Shown here in pieces: positions 54,601 to 62,747 of a stretch of 64,000 nt of DNA. The notes below the pieces were generated by a model, which saw nothing but the letters and a program-made list of their open reading frames with translations, ran no database searches and was not told the DNA's origin. Location of the stretch: the NCBI RefSeq assembly GCF_001676785.2, contig NZ_CP015910.2, forward strand, positions 434,001 to 498,000. The letters are read 5' to 3'. Each line of letters opens with the position of its first letter. The first letter of the stretch is position 1. This stretch comes from Brachyspira hyodysenteriae ATCC 27164 (GTDB lineage Bacteria > Spirochaetota > Brachyspiria > Brachyspirales > Brachyspiraceae). Made by a program: the position numbers and the translations under genes.

Positions 54601-55500
54601 TTAATCAAAGAATAATTTTGTTAAATCAATACCAACTTTAAGTTCAAATCCCCATCCATTTTTATTAAATTCAGAATGTCCTATTCCAGCAGCAGACATA
54701 TCTTGCTTGAATATACCGCCGTAGAATAATCTAGGTTCGATAAAGAAAGTCCATTCTTCTAGGAAAAACTGTAAACGAGGATTGAATCTTATCCAATACC
54801 AGTCATTAAATGAAGTTTGAGCACCTGATAATATTTTAAATTGTATTTCAGGTCTTAAAGCGAACCAATCATTGAAGCGCATTTGATAAGCTACTCTGAA
54901 TTCAGTACCGTCATACCAACCTTGATTTAATTTACCTGTATTAGGATCATATTGATTTCCTCTTAAATATATATTCTGCTGAGCCATAAATGTTATAGAA
55001 TGAGATTTGAATGCTGCAACATCAGGAAGTTTTTTATTCAAATACATTACAAATACAAAATCTCCTGTTGAAGTAAAGCCTAAACTGAAAGTATTAAATA
55101 AATACATGTTACCTGTCAATTCGACAGAAGAAAAAGGATTAGAGCTGTTTTTTCCGCTTCTGCTTCCCTCTTTCCAAGTAGGATCATATACGCTTGGATT
55201 ATCAAATTGTGCTTGAAATATAAATCCAAAACCTAACCATGGAGCACTTTTTAATGTCTGCATATAAGTTAATTTTGTGTCAAAATTTTCCATCATTCTT
55301 TTTGCTTTAGGATCTGTTCCCAAACTTGTCAAATCTCCTGAAGCATATTCAATGTAAAAACTTAACATTTTCATTGAACCTGGATACACATTAAAAAACT
55401 GATAAGCAGGATTTGTTTGAGTATTTGCTGCTTGCTGAGCAAATAATGCAGTGCTTGCTAATAATGAAATGGCTAAGATATTAGTTAATAATTTTCTCAT
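54601..55500 (-). CDS. Putative outer-membrane beta-barrel protein of the glucuronide locus
   Basis: Family not recognised. The 299-residue product starts with a clear signal peptide (MRKLLTNILAISLLASTALFAQ). The mature part alternates short amphipathic strands with aromatic residues (SMKMLSFYIEYASGD, LGFGFIFQAQFDNP, GTEFRVAYQMRFNDWFALRPEIQF, FFLEEWTFFIEPRLFYGG) and ends ...KVGIDLTKLFFD with a terminal aromatic, as outer-membrane barrels do. Being first in the transcript with uidA and the GPH symporter, it may be a porin for glucuronides; that is inference. I start at ATG 55500 because the AAAGGAG ribosome site lies in the longer in-frame extension to 55521, which itself overlaps the operator. 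Confidence 0.75.
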   Translation of the reverse strand: MRKLLTNILAISLLASTALFAQQAANTQTNPAYQFFNVYPGSMKMLSFYIEYASGDLTSLGTDPKAKRMMENFDTKLTYMQTLKSAPWLGFGFIFQAQFDNPSVYDPTWKEGSRSGKNSSNPFSSVELTGNMYLFNTFSLGFTSTGDFVFVMYLNKKLPDVAAFKSHSITFMAQQNIYLRGNQYDPNTGKLNQGWYDGTEFRVAYQMRFNDWFALRPEIQFKILSGAQTSFNDWYWIRFNPRLQFFLEEWTFFIEPRLFYGGIFKQDMSAAGIGHSEFNKNGWGFELKVGIDLTKLFFD

Positions 55501-55510
55501 ATATAACTCC

Positions 55511-55556
55511 TTTACTAACATACTAGTATTTTAGTAAAAATAAAATCCAATGTCAA
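55511..55556 (-). promoter_or_regulatory. Promoter and 28-bp operator of the barrel protein-uidA transcript
   Basis: On the minus strand TTGACA (55551-55556), 17 bp, TAAAAT (55528-55533). ATACTAGTAT (55520-55529) is the core of a longer palindrome whose outer arms are TTTACTAA (55511-55518) and TTAGTAAA (55531-55538), with a single mismatched pair. It covers the -10 box. This is the most complete of the three copies. Confidence 0.82.
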
Positions 55557-55674
55557 TAAAAAAGATGATTTTTTTGTAAAAAAGTAATATTCGCTGTTTT
55601 TTTATTTATTTTTTATTGCTTGAAGTTTATTTATAAATGATGTATCTTTTATAAATATGAGAAGACAAACATAT

Positions 55675-55690
55675 AAATTGTGAACAATTT
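55675..55690. promoter_or_regulatory. Inverted repeat upstream of gntR
   Basis: AAATTGT (55675-55681) and ACAATTT (55684-55690) around GA form a perfect inverted repeat 50 bp before the regulator gene. It differs from the ATACTAGTAT sites; a role in control of the regulator is possible. Confidence 0.35.
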
Positions 55691-55739
55691 TTAATAACAA
55701 TGATAAAAAATAATAATTTGAAGGATCTATTTTTACATT

Positions 55740-56450
55740 ATGCCTAAAGCCAAGAATAATAATGCAGATAATTTAATAATATTAGAAAGAGAAGTTAATG
55801 AACCTATAGGTGATTATGCTGTTAGATGTTTGGAATATAATATAATAAATATGACATTGCTTCCTGGCACTTTTATTAGTGAAAAGATAGTAAGTGAGGT
55901 ATTATCTATAAGCAGAACTCCTATAAGAGAGGCTTTCTCCAGACTTGAGAAGATTAATTTGATGGAAATATACCCTCAGAAAGGTACTAGGGTTTCATTG
56001 ATAGATACTAGTATAGTTGAAGAAACTAGTTTTATGAGAATGGTTCTTGAAAAAGAAATCATAAAAATGGTTTGCAAAAATCATACAGAAAAAGATTTAA
56101 AATTATTGAATAAAAATATAGAACAATATGAGAAAAATATAAATACTAATAAATTTTATGAACTTCTTAAATTAGATAATGATTTTCATGAGTTATTATT
56201 TTCAATAGCAGATAAAAAATTAACTTTTAGCTTAATAAGAGATTCTATAAAACATTTTAACAGAGCTAGAATATTTAATATAATGGAAATGGATAGAAAT
56301 AGAACATTAATAGAACATCAGAATATACTTCTTTTTATAAAGGAAAAAAATATAAAAAAACTTATTCCTCTTATGGAAGTACATTTGACTCATGTAAAAG
56401 ATGACATGGTGTTTTTGAAAAATAAATTCCCTGAATATTTTAATAAGTAG
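55740..56450 (+). CDS. GntR family transcriptional regulator, FadR subfamily
   Basis: A 236-residue regulator. The N-terminal winged helix (about 15-80) shows LLPGTFISEKIVSEVLSISRTPIREAFSRLEKINLMEIYPQKGTRVS, the standard GntR recognition region. The C-terminal FCD ligand domain (about 90-230) has FMRMVLEKEIIK, LDNDFHELLFSIADKK and the metal/ligand His pattern ending in LMEVHLTHVKDDM. It is divergent from the barrel protein-uidA transcript and convergent with kdgK. By analogy with UxuR/ExuR it probably represses the glucuronide genes and releases DNA on binding a hexuronate or its product; the effector is not known. AAGGA lies 14 nt before the ATG. Confidence 0.9.
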   Translation: MPKAKNNNADNLIILEREVNEPIGDYAVRCLEYNIINMTLLPGTFISEKIVSEVLSISRTPIREAFSRLEKINLMEIYPQKGTRVSLIDTSIVEETSFMRMVLEKEIIKMVCKNHTEKDLKLLNKNIEQYEKNINTNKFYELLKLDNDFHELLFSIADKKLTFSLIRDSIKHFNRARIFNIMEMDRNRTLIEHQNILLFIKEKNIKKLIPLMEVHLTHVKDDMVFLKNKFPEYFNK

Positions 56451-56455
56451 AGAAT

Positions 56456-57478
56456 TTATCTTTTTACATCTAAACCATTTTCAGATTTCATTAAATTTAT
56501 TACCTCATCTTTTGTGGTTAAATTCCAATCACCAGGTATACTATGCTTTATACAAAATGAAGCAGTGGCAAATTCTAATATATCCTGATAATTGTCAAAT
56601 AGCTGTATACCTGAAAGTATTCCGGCAGCAAATGAATCTCCAGTTCCTATTCTGTCAATAATATTTTTTATATAGTATTTTTTTGATTTATATAAATTTT
56701 TATTAGTATATAACATACTATATATATTATTATGATTAGAACTTACAGTTTCTCTTTTTGTTGTTATTACCATTTCTAATGAATATTTATCGATTAATTG
56801 CTGCATAATATACTTATAATCTTCGTCGTTTATATTTCCGTCTACATCAGCATTACTTTTTATACCTAATATTTTTACAGCATCATATTCATTAGCAAAT
56901 ACTATATCAGAATATTGTACAATTTCAGGCATTACTTCCTCTATAGTTTTGCCGTATTTCCATAATTTTTTTCTATAATTTATATCGCATGACACTTTTA
57001 CATTTCTTTTTTTTGCTTCTTTTACTGCAAATAGTGTAAGATCAGCAGCAGTCTGACTTATTGCAGGTGTTACTCCGCTTATATGAAAATATGAGGCATC
57101 TTTAAACACTTTATCCCAATCAAAATCTTCTATTAAAGCCATAGATATAGAAGAATACTCTCTGTCATAAATAACATTAGAAGTTCTATAGTTATTTCCA
57201 GTATCTACAAAGTATATACCTAGTCTTTTTCCTTCCCAAGATATCGCAGATGTATCAACTCTATGACTTAATAATAATTCTTCAACCTTTTTTCCTATGG
57301 CATTATTAGGAAGTGCTGTTACATATCTGCTTTTTAATCCGAATATAGAAGCCAAAACGCAAATATTAGCTTCCACACCTCCGAATGTTGCATTGAGTTT
57401 TGATGATTGAAATAATCTTTCATTATCTACCGATGAGAGTCTTAACATTATCTCTCCGAAACCTACTATGTATGACAT
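56456..57478 (-). CDS. kdgK: 2-keto-3-deoxygluconate kinase
   Basis: Phosphorylates KDG to KDPG with ATP, between UxuA and Eda. The 340-residue PfkB/ribokinase-family protein has GEIMLRLSSVDNERLFQS, FGGVEANICVLASIFG (substrate loop), and the C-terminal signature IDRIGTGDSFAAGILSGI with the catalytic Asp. Other PfkB sugar kinases are possible by sequence alone, but the opening and the locus fit KdgK well. It ends 5 bp from the stop of gntR on the other strand and has its own promoter with an ATACTAGTAT site. Confidence 0.92.
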   Translation of the reverse strand: MSYIVGFGEIMLRLSSVDNERLFQSSKLNATFGGVEANICVLASIFGLKSRYVTALPNNAIGKKVEELLLSHRVDTSAISWEGKRLGIYFVDTGNNYRTSNVIYDREYSSISMALIEDFDWDKVFKDASYFHISGVTPAISQTAADLTLFAVKEAKKRNVKVSCDINYRKKLWKYGKTIEEVMPEIVQYSDIVFANEYDAVKILGIKSNADVDGNINDEDYKYIMQQLIDKYSLEMVITTKRETVSSNHNNIYSMLYTNKNLYKSKKYYIKNIIDRIGTGDSFAAGILSGIQLFDNYQDILEFATASFCIKHSIPGDWNLTTKDEVINLMKSENGLDVKR

Positions 57479-57501
57479 TTTTTATTACCTCTATTATTTA
57501 T

Positions 57502-57560
57502 ATACTAGTATGTCAATATGATTATAATAATATGATAGTACACTAAATATCAATTGTCAA
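57502..57560 (-). promoter_or_regulatory. kdgK promoter region with ATACTAGTAT operator
   Basis: On the minus strand TTGACA (57555-57560), 17 bp, TATCAT (57532-57537), with the palindrome ATACTAGTAT (57502-57511) just downstream of the expected start of transcription. A second TTGACA (57511-57516) abuts the operator and could be an alternative -35 box. Confidence 0.65.
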
Positions 57561-57595
57561 ATAAATATTAAAAAAATTATTTATTATATAAACAA

Positions 57596-57627
57596 AAAAG
57601 GCTAAATATATAAATATTTAACCTTTT
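57596..57627 (-). terminator. Terminator after the thioredoxin-like genes
   Basis: AAAAGGCTAAATAT (57596-57609) with ATATTTAACCTTTT (57614-57627); the mismatch is a wobble pair on the minus strand and T's follow there. Confidence 0.8.
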
Positions 57628-57651
57628 ATAATTTTGAGAATAAGAAAAATA

Positions 57652-57993
57652 CTATAGATTTTCTTTTAGGATTTTAATGATCTCTTCTTTACTTAGAACT
57701 TTACCATATGAAAGAACTTTATCATCTAATAATAGGGCAGGAGTTGACATTACTCCGTAAGAAGCAATTTCAGCCATATCTTCTACATATTTAATAGCTA
57801 AATCAAGTTTTGCTTCTTCTATAGCAGCTATTGTATTTTCCTCTAATTTTTTACAATTAGAGCATCCTGTACCTAATATTTTTACTCTTGCTTCTATAGG
57901 TGATTCTTTTATAGTTTCCTCTTCAACGAAGGGGGTAATAGAAGGACCTCAGCCGCATCCGCCTTTCCCAAATAATATATCTTTTAATGACAT
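57652..57993 (-). CDS. Thioredoxin-fold selenoprotein with CGU motif (in-frame UGA)
   Basis: A 113-residue small thioredoxin of the MTH895/TM0996 (redox-active disulfide 2) type, if UGA at 57951-57949 is read as selenocysteine at residue 15. The frame opens with AAGGAG and ATG 57993, runs MSLKDILFGKGGCG, then UGA, then GPSITPFVEEETIKESPIEA, and enters the thioredoxin fold KILGTGCSNCKKLEENT (CxxC at 44 and 47) and VMSTPALLLDDKVLSYGKVL (cis-Pro). No second start with a ribosome site lies after UGA. The coding match on both sides of UGA to the Cys paralogue at 58421-58732 (KCICGGLC there) argues against a chance stop. The gene closes a cluster with arsenic transport genes. Redox work on metalloid or thiol substrates is inferred. 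Confidence 0.85.
57918..57934 (-). promoter_or_regulatory. Candidate bacterial SECIS hairpin of the first selenoprotein
   Basis: Starting 15 nt after the UGA, CCCCTTC pairs with GAAGAGG (minus strand; one C-A mismatch) around the tri-loop GUU, which sits 22-24 nt after UGA. Bacterial SECIS elements lie in the coding region directly after UGA, with a small apical loop containing G and U. Confidence 0.6.
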
Positions 57994-58017
57994 ACTTACT
58001 CCTTTTTTATCATTTTA

Positions 58018-58335
58018 TTATAATTTTTCTTTTAAAATATTAACTATTTTTTCTCTATCCAAGACCTCTCCATAAGATATAAGTTCATCATTTACAATAA
58101 GAGCAGGCAAAGTCATAACTCCGTAATATGACATACTTCCTTTGCTGTCAGTATATTTTATGGATAAATCTAAATTTAGATCTAATATAGCTCTTCTTAA
58201 ATTATCAAGCATATCAAGAGAATTTTTATCATCATTCCCTAAAAGCAGTATTTTTTCTACTTCTCTTTCTATACCCTCATCCTCTAGAGGGTCAGGCAAA
58301 CATCCTCAGCCAAATTGTATTTTTTCTATAGCCAT
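58018..58335 (-). CDS. Thioredoxin-fold selenoprotein with UGC motif and no CxxC (in-frame UGA)
   Basis: A 105-residue paralogue of its neighbours if UGA at 58308-58306 is read as selenocysteine at residue 10. ATG 58335 follows GGAGG closely and the frame reads MAIEKIQFG, UGA, GCLPDPLEDEGIEREVEKILLLG. The thioredoxin fold is kept (YYGVMTLPALIVNDELISYGEVLDREKIVNILKEKL, with cis-Pro), but the CxxC of the other two copies is replaced: aligned residues are Asn34 and Lys37 in GNDDKNS. So Sec10 and Cys12 (U-G-C) are the only visible redox residues. A start at the later Met-less stretch is not supported, since no ATG with a ribosome site lies between UGA and the fold. The next gene starts 24 bp after its stop. 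Confidence 0.82.
58273..58292 (-). promoter_or_regulatory. Candidate bacterial SECIS hairpin of the second selenoprotein
   Basis: Starting 14 nt after the UGA, ACCCTC pairs perfectly with GAGGGT around the 8-nt loop UAGAGGAU, which lies 20-27 nt after UGA. This matches the position of the hairpin in the neighbouring gene. Confidence 0.62.
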
Positions 58336-58363
58336 AATATACCTCCAAAGTTAGTATATACAT

Positions 58364-58391
58364 ATTATAGGTATATATAGAATAATTGCAA
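58364..58391 (-). promoter_or_regulatory. Promoter of the two selenoprotein genes
   Basis: On the minus strand TTGCAA (58386-58391), 16 bp, TATAAT (58364-58369), 29 bp before ATG 58335. Confidence 0.6.
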
Positions 58392-58420
58392 ATTTAAAAA
58401 TTAAAAAAATCATACATTTT

Positions 58421-58732
58421 TTACAATTTATCTTTTAATAGTTCAATTATTTCATCTTTATTCAGTACTTTACCATAAGATAATACATTTTCATCTAATA
58501 CTAAGCTAGGTGTGGATATAACTCCATAGGCAGCTATTTTTTCTATATCATAGACATGTCCTACTGTTAAATTAACTCCCATATCTTTTAAAGCTTTTAA
58601 TGTGTTTTCTTCTAATTTTTTACAATTAAGACAGCCTGTACCTAATATTTTTATTCTTGCATTTTCTTCAGATGTATCTGAGCATAATCCGCCGCAGATG
58701 CATTTTGATTTTTTATTGTTATTAAAAAACAT
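58421..58732 (-). CDS. Small thioredoxin-fold protein, Cys paralogue of the selenoproteins
   Basis: A 103-residue cytoplasmic thioredoxin-fold protein with an N-terminal Cys cluster CICGGLC (C11, C13, C17), then the fold KILGTGCLNCKKLEENTLKAL (CxxC at 34 and 37) and VISTPSLVLDENVLSYGKVL. It aligns end to end with the protein at 57652-57993, and C13 falls at or next to the selenocysteine position. Proteins of this group often sit beside ArsP-like permeases and ArsR regulators. AAAGGAG precedes the ATG. A promoter of its own is likely. Confidence 0.92.
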   Translation of the reverse strand: MFFNNNKKSKCICGGLCSDTSEENARIKILGTGCLNCKKLEENTLKALKDMGVNLTVGHVYDIEKIAAYGVISTPSLVLDENVLSYGKVLNKDEIIELLKDKL

Positions 58733-58764
58733 AATTTACTCCTTTTTATAGTTTTTTATTATTG

Positions 58765-58793
58765 ATATCACCTAAACAACTATATTTTGTCAA
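58765..58793 (-). promoter_or_regulatory. Promoter of the Cys thioredoxin-like gene
   Basis: On the minus strand TTGACA (58788-58793), 17 bp, TGATAT (58765-58770), 33 bp before the start codon. Confidence 0.55.
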
Positions 58794-58823
58794 AAATAAA
58801 TTTATATTTTTGTTTTTATATCT

Positions 58824-58925
58824 GAGGCTTTGTCCACCGCGAAGCGTACCAGTAGGGTAAGCTCCCACTTCTTTTATTGCTACAGGTACAGCCCACCTCA
58901 CGAAGTGTGCCTATGGAAGGCGAAA
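58824..58925. repeat. GC-rich intergenic repeat pair with GAA-loop hairpins
   Basis: In the gene-free stretch 58733-59092 two similar units occur about 60 bp apart: CCACCGCGAAGCGTACC (58834-58850) and CCACCTCACGAAGTGTGCC (58893-58911). Each folds into a small hairpin with a GAA loop, CGC-GAA-GCG and CAC-GAA-GTG, and the middle pair differs in a compensating way. The GC content stands far above the surroundings. Confidence 0.6.
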
Positions 58926-59015
58926 AGCTATGTTTTAGCGTAAATTTAATATTTTATATTACATGTAAAACATAATTAGTATTATTTAGTACTCATTTTA
59001 TACTTGCACTTTTTG

Positions 59016-59041
59016 CAACTTTTTGCGGCGGGAAAAAGTTG
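59016..59041. repeat. Hairpin with GC-rich loop
   Basis: CAACTTTTT (59016-59024) and AAAAAGTTG (59033-59041) form a 9-bp stem around GCGGCGGG. It looks like a repeat-type intergenic element; no coding content. Confidence 0.55.
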
Positions 59042-59065
59042 AATAAAAAAATTGACAAACTTAAA

Positions 59066-59089
59066 AATTTTTAGTATCTACTAAAAATT
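59066..59089 (-). terminator. Terminator after the ArsP-like permease gene
   Basis: AATTTTTAGTA and TACTAAAAATT (59066-59076, 59079-59089) form an 11-bp perfect inverted repeat with a 2-nt gap, 3 bp after the permease stop codon; T's follow on the minus strand. Confidence 0.65.
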
Positions 59090-59092
59090 AAA

Positions 59093-60106
59093 TCATACAA
59101 AAAGAAAATAAAAATTATTGAATAAGTATCCAATAATAATTATTCCCAAAGTTACTATAAATACAAAAAACATTAAAAGAGGCATTTTTACTGCTTTTTT
59201 TAGCATAATAATAGATGGTAAAGATAAAGCAGTAACAGACATCATAAATGATAAGATAGTACCAAGTCCAGCACCTTTATAAAATAAACTTTCAGCTATA
59301 GGTAAAGTTCCGAATATATCAGCATACATTGGAATTCCTACTAAAGATGCTAAAGGCACAGAATACCAATTATTTTTTCCTAATATTGTATCTATCCACT
59401 GAGAAGGTATAACATTATGAATAAAAGCACCAATACCTACTCCTATAAAAATATATAAATAAACTTTTTTGATAGTTTGTATAACCTGTTCTTTTGAATA
59501 TATTAATCTTTCTTTTTTTGTCATAGTTTGTATCGCTATTTCTGTATTATTCATTTTTATATTTTTTATAAAGTCTTCTAAATATTTTTCCATTTTTAGT
59601 TTACCTATCAAGGTACCTCCAAGAACTGCAAGTATAAGACCAACTATTACATAAGCAATTGCAATCTTCATACCGAATATACTTGATAAAAGTATCAAAG
59701 AAGCTAAATCTACTAATGGAGATGATATTAAAAATGAAAATGCCATTGAAATAGGTATTCCTGCTGAAGTAAAACCTATAAAAAGAGGAATCGATGAACA
59801 TGAACAAAATGGCGTAACAGTTCCAAGTAAAGCTGCTAATATATTCGCTGATATTCCATTAAATCTGCCCAATATTTTTTTTGTTCTTTCAGGCGGAAAA
59901 AATGACTGAATATATGATATACAAAATATAAGAACTGATAACAGTACAAATATTTTGATAACATCATAAATAAAAAATTGTATTATTCCTTTAACTGTTT
60001 CTGATAAGGCAAAATTATTTAATATATTTCCTATTAAAGTATTAAGCCATTTCATTGATATTATTTGATCTTGTATAAAGATGAATATTGATTTTATAAT
60101 TTCCAT
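59093..60106 (-). CDS. ArsP/UPF0718-family permease
   Basis: A 337-residue inner-membrane permease with about eight helices. The diagnostic motif is LGTVTPFCSCSSIPLFIGFTSAG, with the CSC cysteines that bind trivalent arsenicals in ArsP, followed by FSFLISSPLVDLASLILL; the second half repeats GIPMYADIFGTLPIAESLF. ArsP exports trivalent organoarsenicals, while other UPF0718 members have unknown cargo. The neighbours ACR3 and ArsR support an arsenic role. It lies 51 bp after acr3 in the same transcript. Confidence 0.87.
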   Translation of the reverse strand: MEIIKSIFIFIQDQIISMKWLNTLIGNILNNFALSETVKGIIQFFIYDVIKIFVLLSVLIFCISYIQSFFPPERTKKILGRFNGISANILAALLGTVTPFCSCSSIPLFIGFTSAGIPISMAFSFLISSPLVDLASLILLSSIFGMKIAIAYVIVGLILAVLGGTLIGKLKMEKYLEDFIKNIKMNNTEIAIQTMTKKERLIYSKEQVIQTIKKVYLYIFIGVGIGAFIHNVIPSQWIDTILGKNNWYSVPLASLVGIPMYADIFGTLPIAESLFYKGAGLGTILSFMMSVTALSLPSIIMLKKAVKMPLLMFFVFIVTLGIIIIGYLFNNFYFLFV

Positions 60107-60157
60107 TTTTTATAACTCCTAATTTATTAAAAAAATTATATTGTTAATTTCTTATTA

Positions 60158-61201
60158 TTAATTTTTGAATTTATTTTTTGTGGCATTTGCTATTTTTACA
60201 AGAGTAAGCATTACAGGTACTTCTACCAATACGCCTACAATTGTTGCAAGTGCCGCTCCGGAATTAACTCCGAATAATGATACAGCTACGGCAACAGCAA
60301 GCTCAAAGAAATTTGATGCCCCTATCATTCCTGCAGGTGCCGCTACATTATGAGGAAGTTTTAATAAATAGCTTGCAATATATGCTATAAAAAATATTAA
60401 AAAGGTTTGTAATATTAAAGGTATAGCTATCAAAATTATATGAATAGGGTTAGATAGTATTACATTTCCTTGAAAGCTGAATAATAATATTAATGTTAAT
60501 AGCAGTCCTATTATTGTTATATTATCAAATTTATGTATAAAAGTATTATTGAAATATTCTATTCCTTTTTTACTGCATACATAAACTCTTGTAATAATTC
60601 CTGCTGTTAATGGTATAAGTACAAATAACACAACAGATAAAAATAATGTATCCCAAGGAACTGTAACATTCGATATTCCTAATAAAAATTTTACTATAGG
60701 AACGAATGCTATAAGTATTATTAAATCATTAGTTGCAACCTGCACTACAGTATATGATGGATTTCCATTTGTTAATGCACTCCAAACAAATACCATAGCA
60801 GTACATGGAGCAGCTCCTAAAAGTACAGCACCAACTAAATATTCTTTTGCTAAATCTTTTGGTATAAAATTATTGAGTATAGTATAAAAAAAGAAAGAAG
60901 CTATAAAAAACATAGTAAAAGGTTTTATAAGCCAATTTACAATCCAAGTAACAAATAAACCTTGAGGATTTTTTGTAATATTTTTTATACTTTGAAAATC
61001 AACACTCATCATCATAGGATATATCATAAGCCATATTAATATTGCTATGGGTATAGAAACATTTGCATATTCAAATTTATTTAATGTATTTGGGATTATA
61101 GGCAGGAATTTAGATATTAATACTCCTATAATCATGCATATAAATACCCATAAAGTTAAATATTTCTGAAAAAAACTTATAGACTCTTTCTTATTTTCCA
61201 T
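60158..61201 (-). CDS. acr3: ACR3-family arsenite efflux permease
   Basis: Exports arsenite (and possibly antimonite) using the proton gradient. The 347-residue protein has about ten helices with family motifs YANVSIPIAILIWLMIYPMMMSVDF, GAVLLGAAPCTAMVFVWSALTNGNPSYTVVQVATNDLI (the essential Cys in APCTAMV) and GASNFFELAVAVAVSLFGVNSGAALATIVGVLVEVPVML (essential Glu). It follows arsR by 38 bp. No arsenate reductase gene of the ArsC type is seen nearby, so the operon would act on trivalent arsenic or use another reductant system. Confidence 0.95.
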   Translation of the reverse strand: MENKKESISFFQKYLTLWVFICMIIGVLISKFLPIIPNTLNKFEYANVSIPIAILIWLMIYPMMMSVDFQSIKNITKNPQGLFVTWIVNWLIKPFTMFFIASFFFYTILNNFIPKDLAKEYLVGAVLLGAAPCTAMVFVWSALTNGNPSYTVVQVATNDLIILIAFVPIVKFLLGISNVTVPWDTLFLSVVLFVLIPLTAGIITRVYVCSKKGIEYFNNTFIHKFDNITIIGLLLTLILLFSFQGNVILSNPIHIILIAIPLILQTFLIFFIAYIASYLLKLPHNVAAPAGMIGASNFFELAVAVAVSLFGVNSGAALATIVGVLVEVPVMLTLVKIANATKNKFKN

Positions 61202-61239
61202 TATAAAATACTCCTAAATATTATCTTTAATATTATTTT

Positions 61240-61551
61240 TTAATCGCATAGAGTTTTTATTTTTTTGTCTTTACTAATTTTTGATGAATAGTAATTCAAA
61301 ACATTTTTTGCTCTTTCAAAACCTTCTTTGTTTATGCTGTAATAAGTCCATTTGCCTTCTTTTCTTGGTATCACTACTTCAGCATCGCATAATATTTTCA
61401 TATGATTCGATAATGTAGACTGCACTATTTTTAATTCTTCTAAAAGTTTGCAGGCACATATTTCAGTATCTTTAATCATATCTAATATTTGAAGTCTGTT
61501 TTCATCGCAGAACGCTTTGAATATTACTGCTTCTTTTTTATAGTCTTTCAT
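61240..61551 (-). CDS. arsR: ArsR-family metalloregulator
   Basis: A 103-residue winged-helix repressor that leaves DNA on binding As(III) or Sb(III). The metal site is C32-A-C34 in TEICACKLLEEL at the start of the recognition segment, followed by KIVQSTLSNHMKILCDAEVVIPRKEGKWTYYSI, the usual helix-turn-helix and wing. It heads the arsR-acr3-arsP transcript. A consensus-like operator lies upstream at 61580-61595. Confidence 0.95.
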   Translation of the reverse strand: MKDYKKEAVIFKAFCDENRLQILDMIKDTEICACKLLEELKIVQSTLSNHMKILCDAEVVIPRKEGKWTYYSINKEGFERAKNVLNYYSSKISKDKKIKTLCD

Positions 61552-61579
61552 ATTAATAGTATCCTTATTAAATTTATAT

Positions 61580-61629
61580 ATCGAAGTTTATCGATGCGTT
61601 AATATAGCATACATATCGAAAAATATCAA
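61580..61629 (-). promoter_or_regulatory. arsR promoter with ATCGA-N6-TCGAT operator
   Basis: On the minus strand TTGATA (61624-61629), 17 bp, TATATT (61601-61606). An inverted repeat ATCGA-N6-TCGAT (61580-61595) lies at the transcript start; known ArsR sites have the form ATCAA-N6-TTGAT. Confidence 0.7.
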
Positions 61630-61718
61630 TATATTTTTTATCTTTTTTTATATTATTGAAATAATGCTGTATAATGGTATAATATCTTATTACTATATAA
61701 AATATGGAGTTTGTTATT

Positions 61719-62747
61719 ATGCAAGTTAAAAATTTTGGAAACGGATATCTTTTATATGAATTAAAAAATGAAAATGATATGATATTAAAACTTACAGATA
61801 TAGGGGCATCAATAGCTGGTGTATTTTTCAAAGATAAAAACGGTAAAGAAATTCAGGTATCATTTGGAAGTGATGATTATTCATTTTATTTAAATCCTCA
61901 TGATTATATAGGTGCTTCTGTAGGAAGAATAGCGAACAGAACAATAAATTCAGAATTTACACTTGACGGACAAACATATAAATTAACTAAAAATGATAAT
62001 GGAAAACATCATTTACATGGCGGTGAAAAAGGAATATCATTTCAGCAGTTTGATTCTAAGTTTTTAGATAATCATTCTGTAGTATTTAGCTATAGTTCAA
62101 ATGAAGGTGATGAAGGATATCCTGCCAATATGGATATAGATATAACATATTCTTTGACTGATGATAATGAAATAATCATAGAATATTTTGCAGCAGTTAA
62201 TGCTCCTACACCAATAAATCTTACTAATCATGCTTATTGGAATCTTAATGGGGAAGATACTATATATGATCATGATTTATTTATAGATTCTTCATTTTAT
62301 TTGCCAGTAACAGATGAATGCGTATCTACAGGAGAGATCTTAAAAACAGAAAACACTCCTTTTGATTTTACTAAAACAAAAAAAATAGGTGCTGATATAG
62401 AAAAAGCAAATGGTTATGATAATTGTTTTATATTTAATGAAAAAAATATATTATCCCATACCAATGAAGAAGAAAATAATTTAAATAAATTAAGAGCTTC
62501 ATGCTATAGTGAAAAAACAGGCATTACTTTAGAGCTTTATACTACAAAACCAGCTATGCATTTCTATTCAGGCAATATGCTTAATAATAGAGAAGTTAGA
62601 AATACAGTTTTAAATAAGCATAATGCATTTTGTTTTGAAACAGAGTATTTACCGGGTGCTGTAAACTTCCCGCATTTTCCAAGCATAATATTTGATGCTG
62701 ACAGAAATTACAGTCATAAAACAATATATAAATTATCACTAAAATAA
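61719..62747 (+). CDS. galM: Galactose mutarotase (aldose 1-epimerase)
   Basis: Interconverts alpha and beta anomers of hexoses. The 342-residue protein has LKLTDIGASIAGVFFKDKNG, YIGASVGRIANRTINSEFTLDGQTY, the catalytic His in GKHHLHGGEKG, NLTNHAYWNLNG (second His), and the catalytic Glu in AFCFETEYLPGAVNFPHFPS. I start at ATG 61719 because the upstream in-frame ATGGAG at 61704 supplies the GGAG ribosome site. No galactose genes adjoin it. Confidence 0.93.
   Translation: MQVKNFGNGYLLYELKNENDMILKLTDIGASIAGVFFKDKNGKEIQVSFGSDDYSFYLNPHDYIGASVGRIANRTINSEFTLDGQTYKLTKNDNGKHHLHGGEKGISFQQFDSKFLDNHSVVFSYSSNEGDEGYPANMDIDITYSLTDDNEIIIEYFAAVNAPTPINLTNHAYWNLNGEDTIYDHDLFIDSSFYLPVTDECVSTGEILKTENTPFDFTKTKKIGADIEKANGYDNCFIFNEKNILSHTNEEENNLNKLRASCYSEKTGITLELYTTKPAMHFYSGNMLNNREVRNTVLNKHNAFCFETEYLPGAVNFPHFPSIIFDADRNYSHKTIYKLSLK

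Follow-up and report, generated by a model that had tools for sequence, protein, structure and literature searches.

Tandem thioredoxin-like genes with in-frame UGA codons, probably read as selenocysteine, beside an arsenic-efflux cluster of Brachyspira hyodysenteriae

Introduction

Brachyspira are gut bacteria of livestock, and livestock were fed organoarsenicals in the past. In the 64,000-nucleotide stretch of the B. hyodysenteriae ATCC 27164 genome analysed here (below, the window), a small thioredoxin-like frame containing a single TGA codon lies downstream of a group of arsenic-efflux genes. Two questions arise: whether this codon is a stop or is decoded as selenocysteine (Sec), and what a protein carrying it may do in such a neighbourhood.

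The gene is already known as a selenoprotein gene: Santesmasses et al. 2017 (PMC5330540) named Sec.1 and Sec.2 in this cluster, and that paper reports the family and the cluster in all Brachyspira genomes analysed there. The description of the gene as a hidden selenoprotein in an earlier note on this DNA thus holds in one sense only. Annotation pipelines truncate both Sec genes, but the family itself has been published since 2017. The published case is useful mainly since the pipelines still do so.

Results

The thioredoxin-like genes

Three paralogues follow each other on the minus strand:

58421..58732, minus strand: gene 1, the Cys paralogue; TIGR00412, C-I-C tail and CXXC
58018..58335, minus strand: Sec.1; in-frame TGA at codon 10, U-G-C tail, no CXXC
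58306..58308, minus strand: UGA (predicted Sec) codon of Sec.1, codon 10 counted from ATG 58335; TGA in 22 of 22 aligned relatives
57652..57993, minus strand: Sec.2, the gene under study; TGA at codon 15; tail C-G-U, and residues 44-47 form an intact CXXC
57949..57951, minus strand: UGA (predicted Sec) codon of Sec.2, codon 15 counted from ATG 57993; TGA in 20 of 20 aligned relatives

The frame of Sec.2, from ATG 57993 to TAG 57652, is open save for the TGA at codon 15, as noted earlier. The translation agrees: it reads MSLKDILFGKGGCG*GPSITPFVEEE...LKENL*, where the TGA is the single internal stop and the TAG is the terminal one. The AAGGAG site claimed for this start is found before the ATG, in the sequence aaaaaaggagtaagtATG. 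When the TGA is treated as a residue, the product matches Pfam Thioredoxin_3 (1.5e-24) and NCBIfam TIGR00412 (4.4e-28). The TIGR00412 scores of Sec.2 (97.5 bits) and gene 1 (89.3 bits) are both above the cut-off of 62. The similarity to gene 1, which had been seen on both sides of the TGA, covers the full length with 53% identity. A chance open frame is excluded for Sec.2, because the 98 codons after the TGA never stay open in 20,000 base shuffles, the relatives contain no stop in 1,960 codons downstream of the TGA, and the median dN/dS is 0.11.

The C-G-U of Sec.2 aligns over the C-I-C of gene 1. To this extent the earlier match to a redox motif stands, but the motif is situated in an N-terminal extension and is not the thioredoxin active site. 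Sec.2 would thus have a C13-x-U15 tail and a separate, intact thioredoxin CXXC, C44-x-x-C47. The extension is disordered in the AlphaFold model (residues 8-30 have a pLDDT below 50, most of the domain one above 90).

Sec.1, a second TGA-containing paralogue between gene 1 and Sec.2, was overlooked in the first reading of the region. Automatic ORF calling shortens it to a 93-residue frame with a TTG start. Its predicted N-terminus is MAIEKIQFG-U-GCLPDPLEDEG..., that is, U10-x-C12; the protein lacks a CXXC, and a further cysteine is absent in 21 of 23 genomes. Its TIGR00412 score, 36.2 bits, is below the cut-off of 62. As the tail of Sec.2 is C-x-U and that of Sec.1 is U-x-C, the Sec/Cys motif is mirrored between the neighbours. 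Two reviews (PMC13188914, PMC9312934) give CxU for Sec.1 and UxC for Sec.2, the reverse of the sequences considered here. We assign UxC to Sec.1, since PMC5330540 defines Sec.1 as the member without CXXC.

Comparison across Brachyspira

The family was found in 24 of 26 Brachyspira genomes compared, which include B. hampsonii, B. innocens, B. pilosicoli and B. alvinipulli. No aligned copy of Sec.2 or Sec.1 departs from TGA. At the homologous codon of gene 1, TGA occurs in four genomes, TGC in twelve and TGT in one, and no other codon was observed; therefore Sec and Cys seem to interchange in orthologues at one position of the cluster. The gene 1 copies with the Sec form of the motif (C-G-U) are those of G002, G011, G014 and G020 (loci L069, L064, L068 and L070). 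The random substitutions or frameshifts around the codon that the earlier note had set against a Sec reading were seen in no close relative.

Sec.1 and Sec.2 together contain no stop in more than 4,000 downstream codons of the relatives. The median dN/dS after the UGA or the homologous codon is 0.11 in Sec.2, 0.16 in Sec.1 and 0.18 in gene 1. By this measure purifying selection acts on the coding sequence past the TGA.

The gene content of the cluster varies: some species have three Sec genes, others lack gene 1, Sec.1 or Sec.2. In G002, G011 and G020 the three Sec genes are in tandem, gene 1 also carrying a TGA. Further peculiarities occur in single genomes, and as some of these assemblies are drafts or MAGs, they may be errors: arsP is split in G022, G024 and G010 (L052, L053, L062), Sec.2 of G002 (L069) has a frameshift near its end, and Sec.1 of G008 (L050) is nine residues shorter.

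Selenocysteine machinery and SECIS-like hairpins

The Sec machinery, which the earlier note had proposed to look for, is complete in the B. hyodysenteriae genome (two contigs, 3.07 Mb): tRNA-Sec, selA, selB and selD are all present. The tRNA-Sec scores above the Rfam cut-off and has the UCA anticodon. It adjoins selA, and selB is about 3 kb farther in the same locus; selD is located elsewhere.

The other UGA-containing genes of the genus belong to the known selenoprotein families GrdA and glutathione peroxidase. In the genome of B. hyodysenteriae a glutathione peroxidase gene outside the window (G000:C1:2136796-2137119, minus strand) has one in-frame TGA and is a further likely selenoprotein gene. 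The TGA form of this gene is present in most relatives; G004-G006 have TGA-free copies only. No grdA was found in the B. hyodysenteriae genome, and the grd cluster has been reported to be lacking in this species (PMC2897892). In G004, G005 and G006 neither GrdA nor a TGA-containing glutathione peroxidase was found. G006 is B. hampsonii, and this fits the remark in PMC5330540 that none of the selenoprotein families known until then is represented in B. hampsonii.

Candidate hairpins were found just after both UGA codons:

58273..58292, minus strand: SECIS-like hairpin of Sec.1, ACCCTC-TAGAGGAT-GAGGGT; two covarying pairs
57915..57931, minus strand: candidate SECIS hairpin of Sec.2, CCCCTTC-GTT-GAAGAGG, short, with one C-A interruption

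A hairpin whose loop is approximately 22-30 nt past the start of the UGA is present in 23 of 23 Sec.1 copies, versus 4% of control positions, and is supported by the two covarying pairs. All Sec forms of gene 1 contain CCTTC-AGTT-GAAGG where Sec.1 has its hairpin, and among the 14 Cys forms no hairpin qualified (control 17%).

The situation in Sec.2 is less clear. In the relatives the hairpin has the form CCCCTTC-G(T/G)T-GAAGAGG, the C-A interruption is usual, and covariation is modest. Under a strict rule allowing no mismatch only 6 of 22 copies qualify (control 18%). The stability of the region after the UGA, compared with synonymous shuffles, has z-scores from -3.7 to +0.5 and is unremarkable in several species including B. 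hyodysenteriae. This measure being unreliable for Sec.2, we based the judgement on where the hairpin lies, on covariation and on the contrast with Cys forms. Given the strict count, the modest covariation and the unremarkable z-scores, the SECIS evidence for Sec.2 is suggestive, not strong. An Rfam scan of positions 55000-62000 for SECIS and other RNA elements gave nothing above the gathering score. Good SECIS candidates for both Sec.1 and Sec.2 are reported in PMC5330540.

Arsenic-efflux genes and the link to ArsP

The genes preceding gene 1 are as follows:

61240..61551, minus strand: arsR, ArsR/SmtB-family metalloregulator, first in the cluster; NF033788, 80.1 bits versus a cut-off of 55; PF01022
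60158..61201, minus strand: acr3, arsenite efflux transporter; TIGR00832 acr3 equivalog, 382.9 bits versus a cut-off of 282.8
59093..60106, minus strand: arsP, ArsP_1 permease; PF03773, 7.3e-63, 212.9 bits versus a gathering score of 32.3

The gene order is arsR-(acr3)-arsP followed by gene 1, Sec.1 and Sec.2. Several relatives have no acr3 match between arsR and arsP, and therefore ArsP is the steadier partner of the thioredoxin-like genes. The two genomes without these genes, G001 and G003, also have no ArsP orthologue (the search gave a 26% paralogue in one and nothing in the other), and both retain tRNA-Sec and selB. This co-occurrence rests on two negative genomes, one of which is 88% complete. 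An exception is G017, where an arsP fragment stands beside both intact Sec genes. In G010, G012, G013 and G016 a distance of 1.3-2.9 kb separates the Sec genes from the ars gene before them, and thus co-transcription is not universal. Among the loci of the family outside Brachyspira, 39 of 41 contain an arsP-like match.

Between arsP and gene 1 lie 351 bp here, compared with about 20-90 bp in most relatives; the distance is similarly long in G025. An interspersed repeat (positions 58765-59085 of the window, minus strand), for which the same genome gives 83 matches, fills this gap.

Discussion

How the UGA is read

The UGA codons of Sec.1 and Sec.2 almost certainly encode selenocysteine. This was the proposal of the earlier note for Sec.2, and it is supported from several sides of the sequence data: the machinery, the invariant TGA, the exchange of U and C, purifying selection, the position of the hairpins and the gene context. 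The prediction in PMC5330540, made independently, agrees. If the UGA were a true stop, Sec.2 would be a pseudogene, or a 14-residue peptide followed by a downstream restart. Standard annotation does truncate both genes, as is also stated in PMC5330540, but a stop at an invariant TGA followed by 1,960 stop-free codons with dN/dS of 0.11, at a position where gene 1 orthologues exchange U and C, is very improbable. Even harder to credit is decoding as some other amino acid, by a change of the code to Trp or by suppression with a near-cognate tRNA. Any reassignment of UGA would open the frame, and nothing else speaks for it, whereas the genome encodes tRNA-Sec (UCA), selA, selB and selD, the codon alternates with Cys and not with Trp, and the remaining UGA genes of the genus are from known selenoprotein families. 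The readings as a stop codon, as a pseudogene and as UGA for Trp were rejected on the conservation past the TGA and the alternation with Cys.

Possible role in arsenical handling

For the locus as a whole, Sec decoding in Sec.1 and Sec.2 together with a role in arsenical handling is very probably the best explanation. Taken by itself, an ArsP-linked arsenical role of the two proteins could go either way. It is suggested by the ars context in the genus, the joint absence with ArsP in G001 and G003, the 39 of 41 distant loci, the export of arsenicals by ArsP of Campylobacter jejuni, and the MTH895/ArsE name of TIGR00412. The main alternative, possible but on the whole doubtful, is that Sec.1 and Sec.2 are general thiol-disulfide oxidoreductases, which might for instance supply a peroxidase or an arsenate reductase with electrons, and that the ars neighbourhood reflects history. 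Sec.2 and gene 1 combine the thioredoxin fold with a CXXC, which is consistent with this, as are the STRING neighbours described by Santesmasses et al. (PMC5330540), which include thioredoxin reductases and peroxiredoxins. Moreover, redox-active disulfide protein 2 in ars operons has been proposed to feed ArsC (Castillo and Saier, PMC2963123). However, no arsC was found among the ORFs of positions 50-64 kb of the window, Sec.1 has no CXXC, and the genes track the presence of ArsP in the genus and adjoin arsP in most distant loci.

Returning to the arsenical role, we tentatively propose, with some doubt, a Sec-based hand-off, in which trivalent organoarsenicals would be bound or reduced by two or three proteins of the thioredoxin fold, whose tails mirror each other as C-x-U and U-x-C, and would be fed to ArsP. 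SelA, SelB, SelD and tRNA-Sec would insert Sec at the single UGA of Sec.1 and of Sec.2, aided by the hairpin just after it. Trivalent arsenicals, of which organoarsenicals such as methylarsenite are the likeliest, may then be captured or reduced by the flexible selenol/thiol tail and passed to the ArsP permease, which would export the product; the substrate of Brachyspira ArsP is a prediction. Sec.2 may use its CXXC to recharge itself or relay electrons. Sec.1, in which no other Cys is conserved, would be a binding or hand-off protein recharged by its paralogues.

It is the function that would matter, as the genes come and go with ArsP while the Sec machinery stays. If the hand-off exists, then G004-G006, where no other Sec family was found among those tested, keep the whole Sec machinery for that system. 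The predicted occurrence of Sec at opposite motif positions in adjacent paralogues offers a testable case of why a cell would bear the cost of selenium in metalloid handling.

Comparison with known systems

With the family of PMC5330540 the genes share the genus, the three-gene cluster, the PF13192 domain, the short N-terminal Sec/Cys extension and one member without CXXC. That paper gives one Cys and two Sec genes for every genome analysed there, whereas here the number of Sec genes rises to three in some genomes, and in others gene 1, Sec.1 or Sec.2 is missing. Its account of the cluster does not mention arsP or acr3. In the literature consulted we did not find the variable gene content including the third Sec copy, the mirrored motifs on a disordered tail, or the co-occurrence with ArsP.

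MTH895/ArsE (PDB 1ILO), the only PDB relative found, represents TIGR00412; Sec.2 and gene 1 score above the cut-off of this family, and arsP is a neighbour in most of its loci. The examined distant members, at about 75 residues, have no N-terminal C-x-U/C tail. Sec.1 differs further, being below the cut-off and having lost the CXXC. An equivalent Sec tail was found in none of the 41 non-Brachyspira loci examined in the named genome collection, and a phylum-wide search gave no TGA in the best non-Brachyspira matches covering the extension. Several spirochaete matches outside Brachyspira have Cys in the N-terminal extension.

The SAO system, linked to organometallic chemistry in a review, likewise has a thioredoxin-like selenoprotein encoded with a transporter, SaoE, to which ArsP is related by a match below the cut-off; the NCBIfam SaoE and Cu/Zn efflux models both match ArsP only at this level. 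The motif is UxxC in SaoT, as opposed to CxU and UxC in Sec.2 and Sec.1. Membership in SAO was rejected, as neither Sec.1 nor Sec.2 matches NF040730 (SaoT) and ArsP scores 99.1 bits against SaoE, where the cut-off is 325.

Finally, the C. jejuni ArsP, an exporter of methylarsenite and trivalent roxarsone, is encoded in an ars cluster with acr3 (PMC6205960). In Brachyspira, too, the ArsP_1 (PF03773) permease gene adjoining the thioredoxin-like genes belongs to an ars cluster with acr3; the substrate there is only predicted. Compared with C. jejuni, the thioredoxin-like genes, including the candidate selenoprotein genes Sec.1 and Sec.2, are an addition in Brachyspira.
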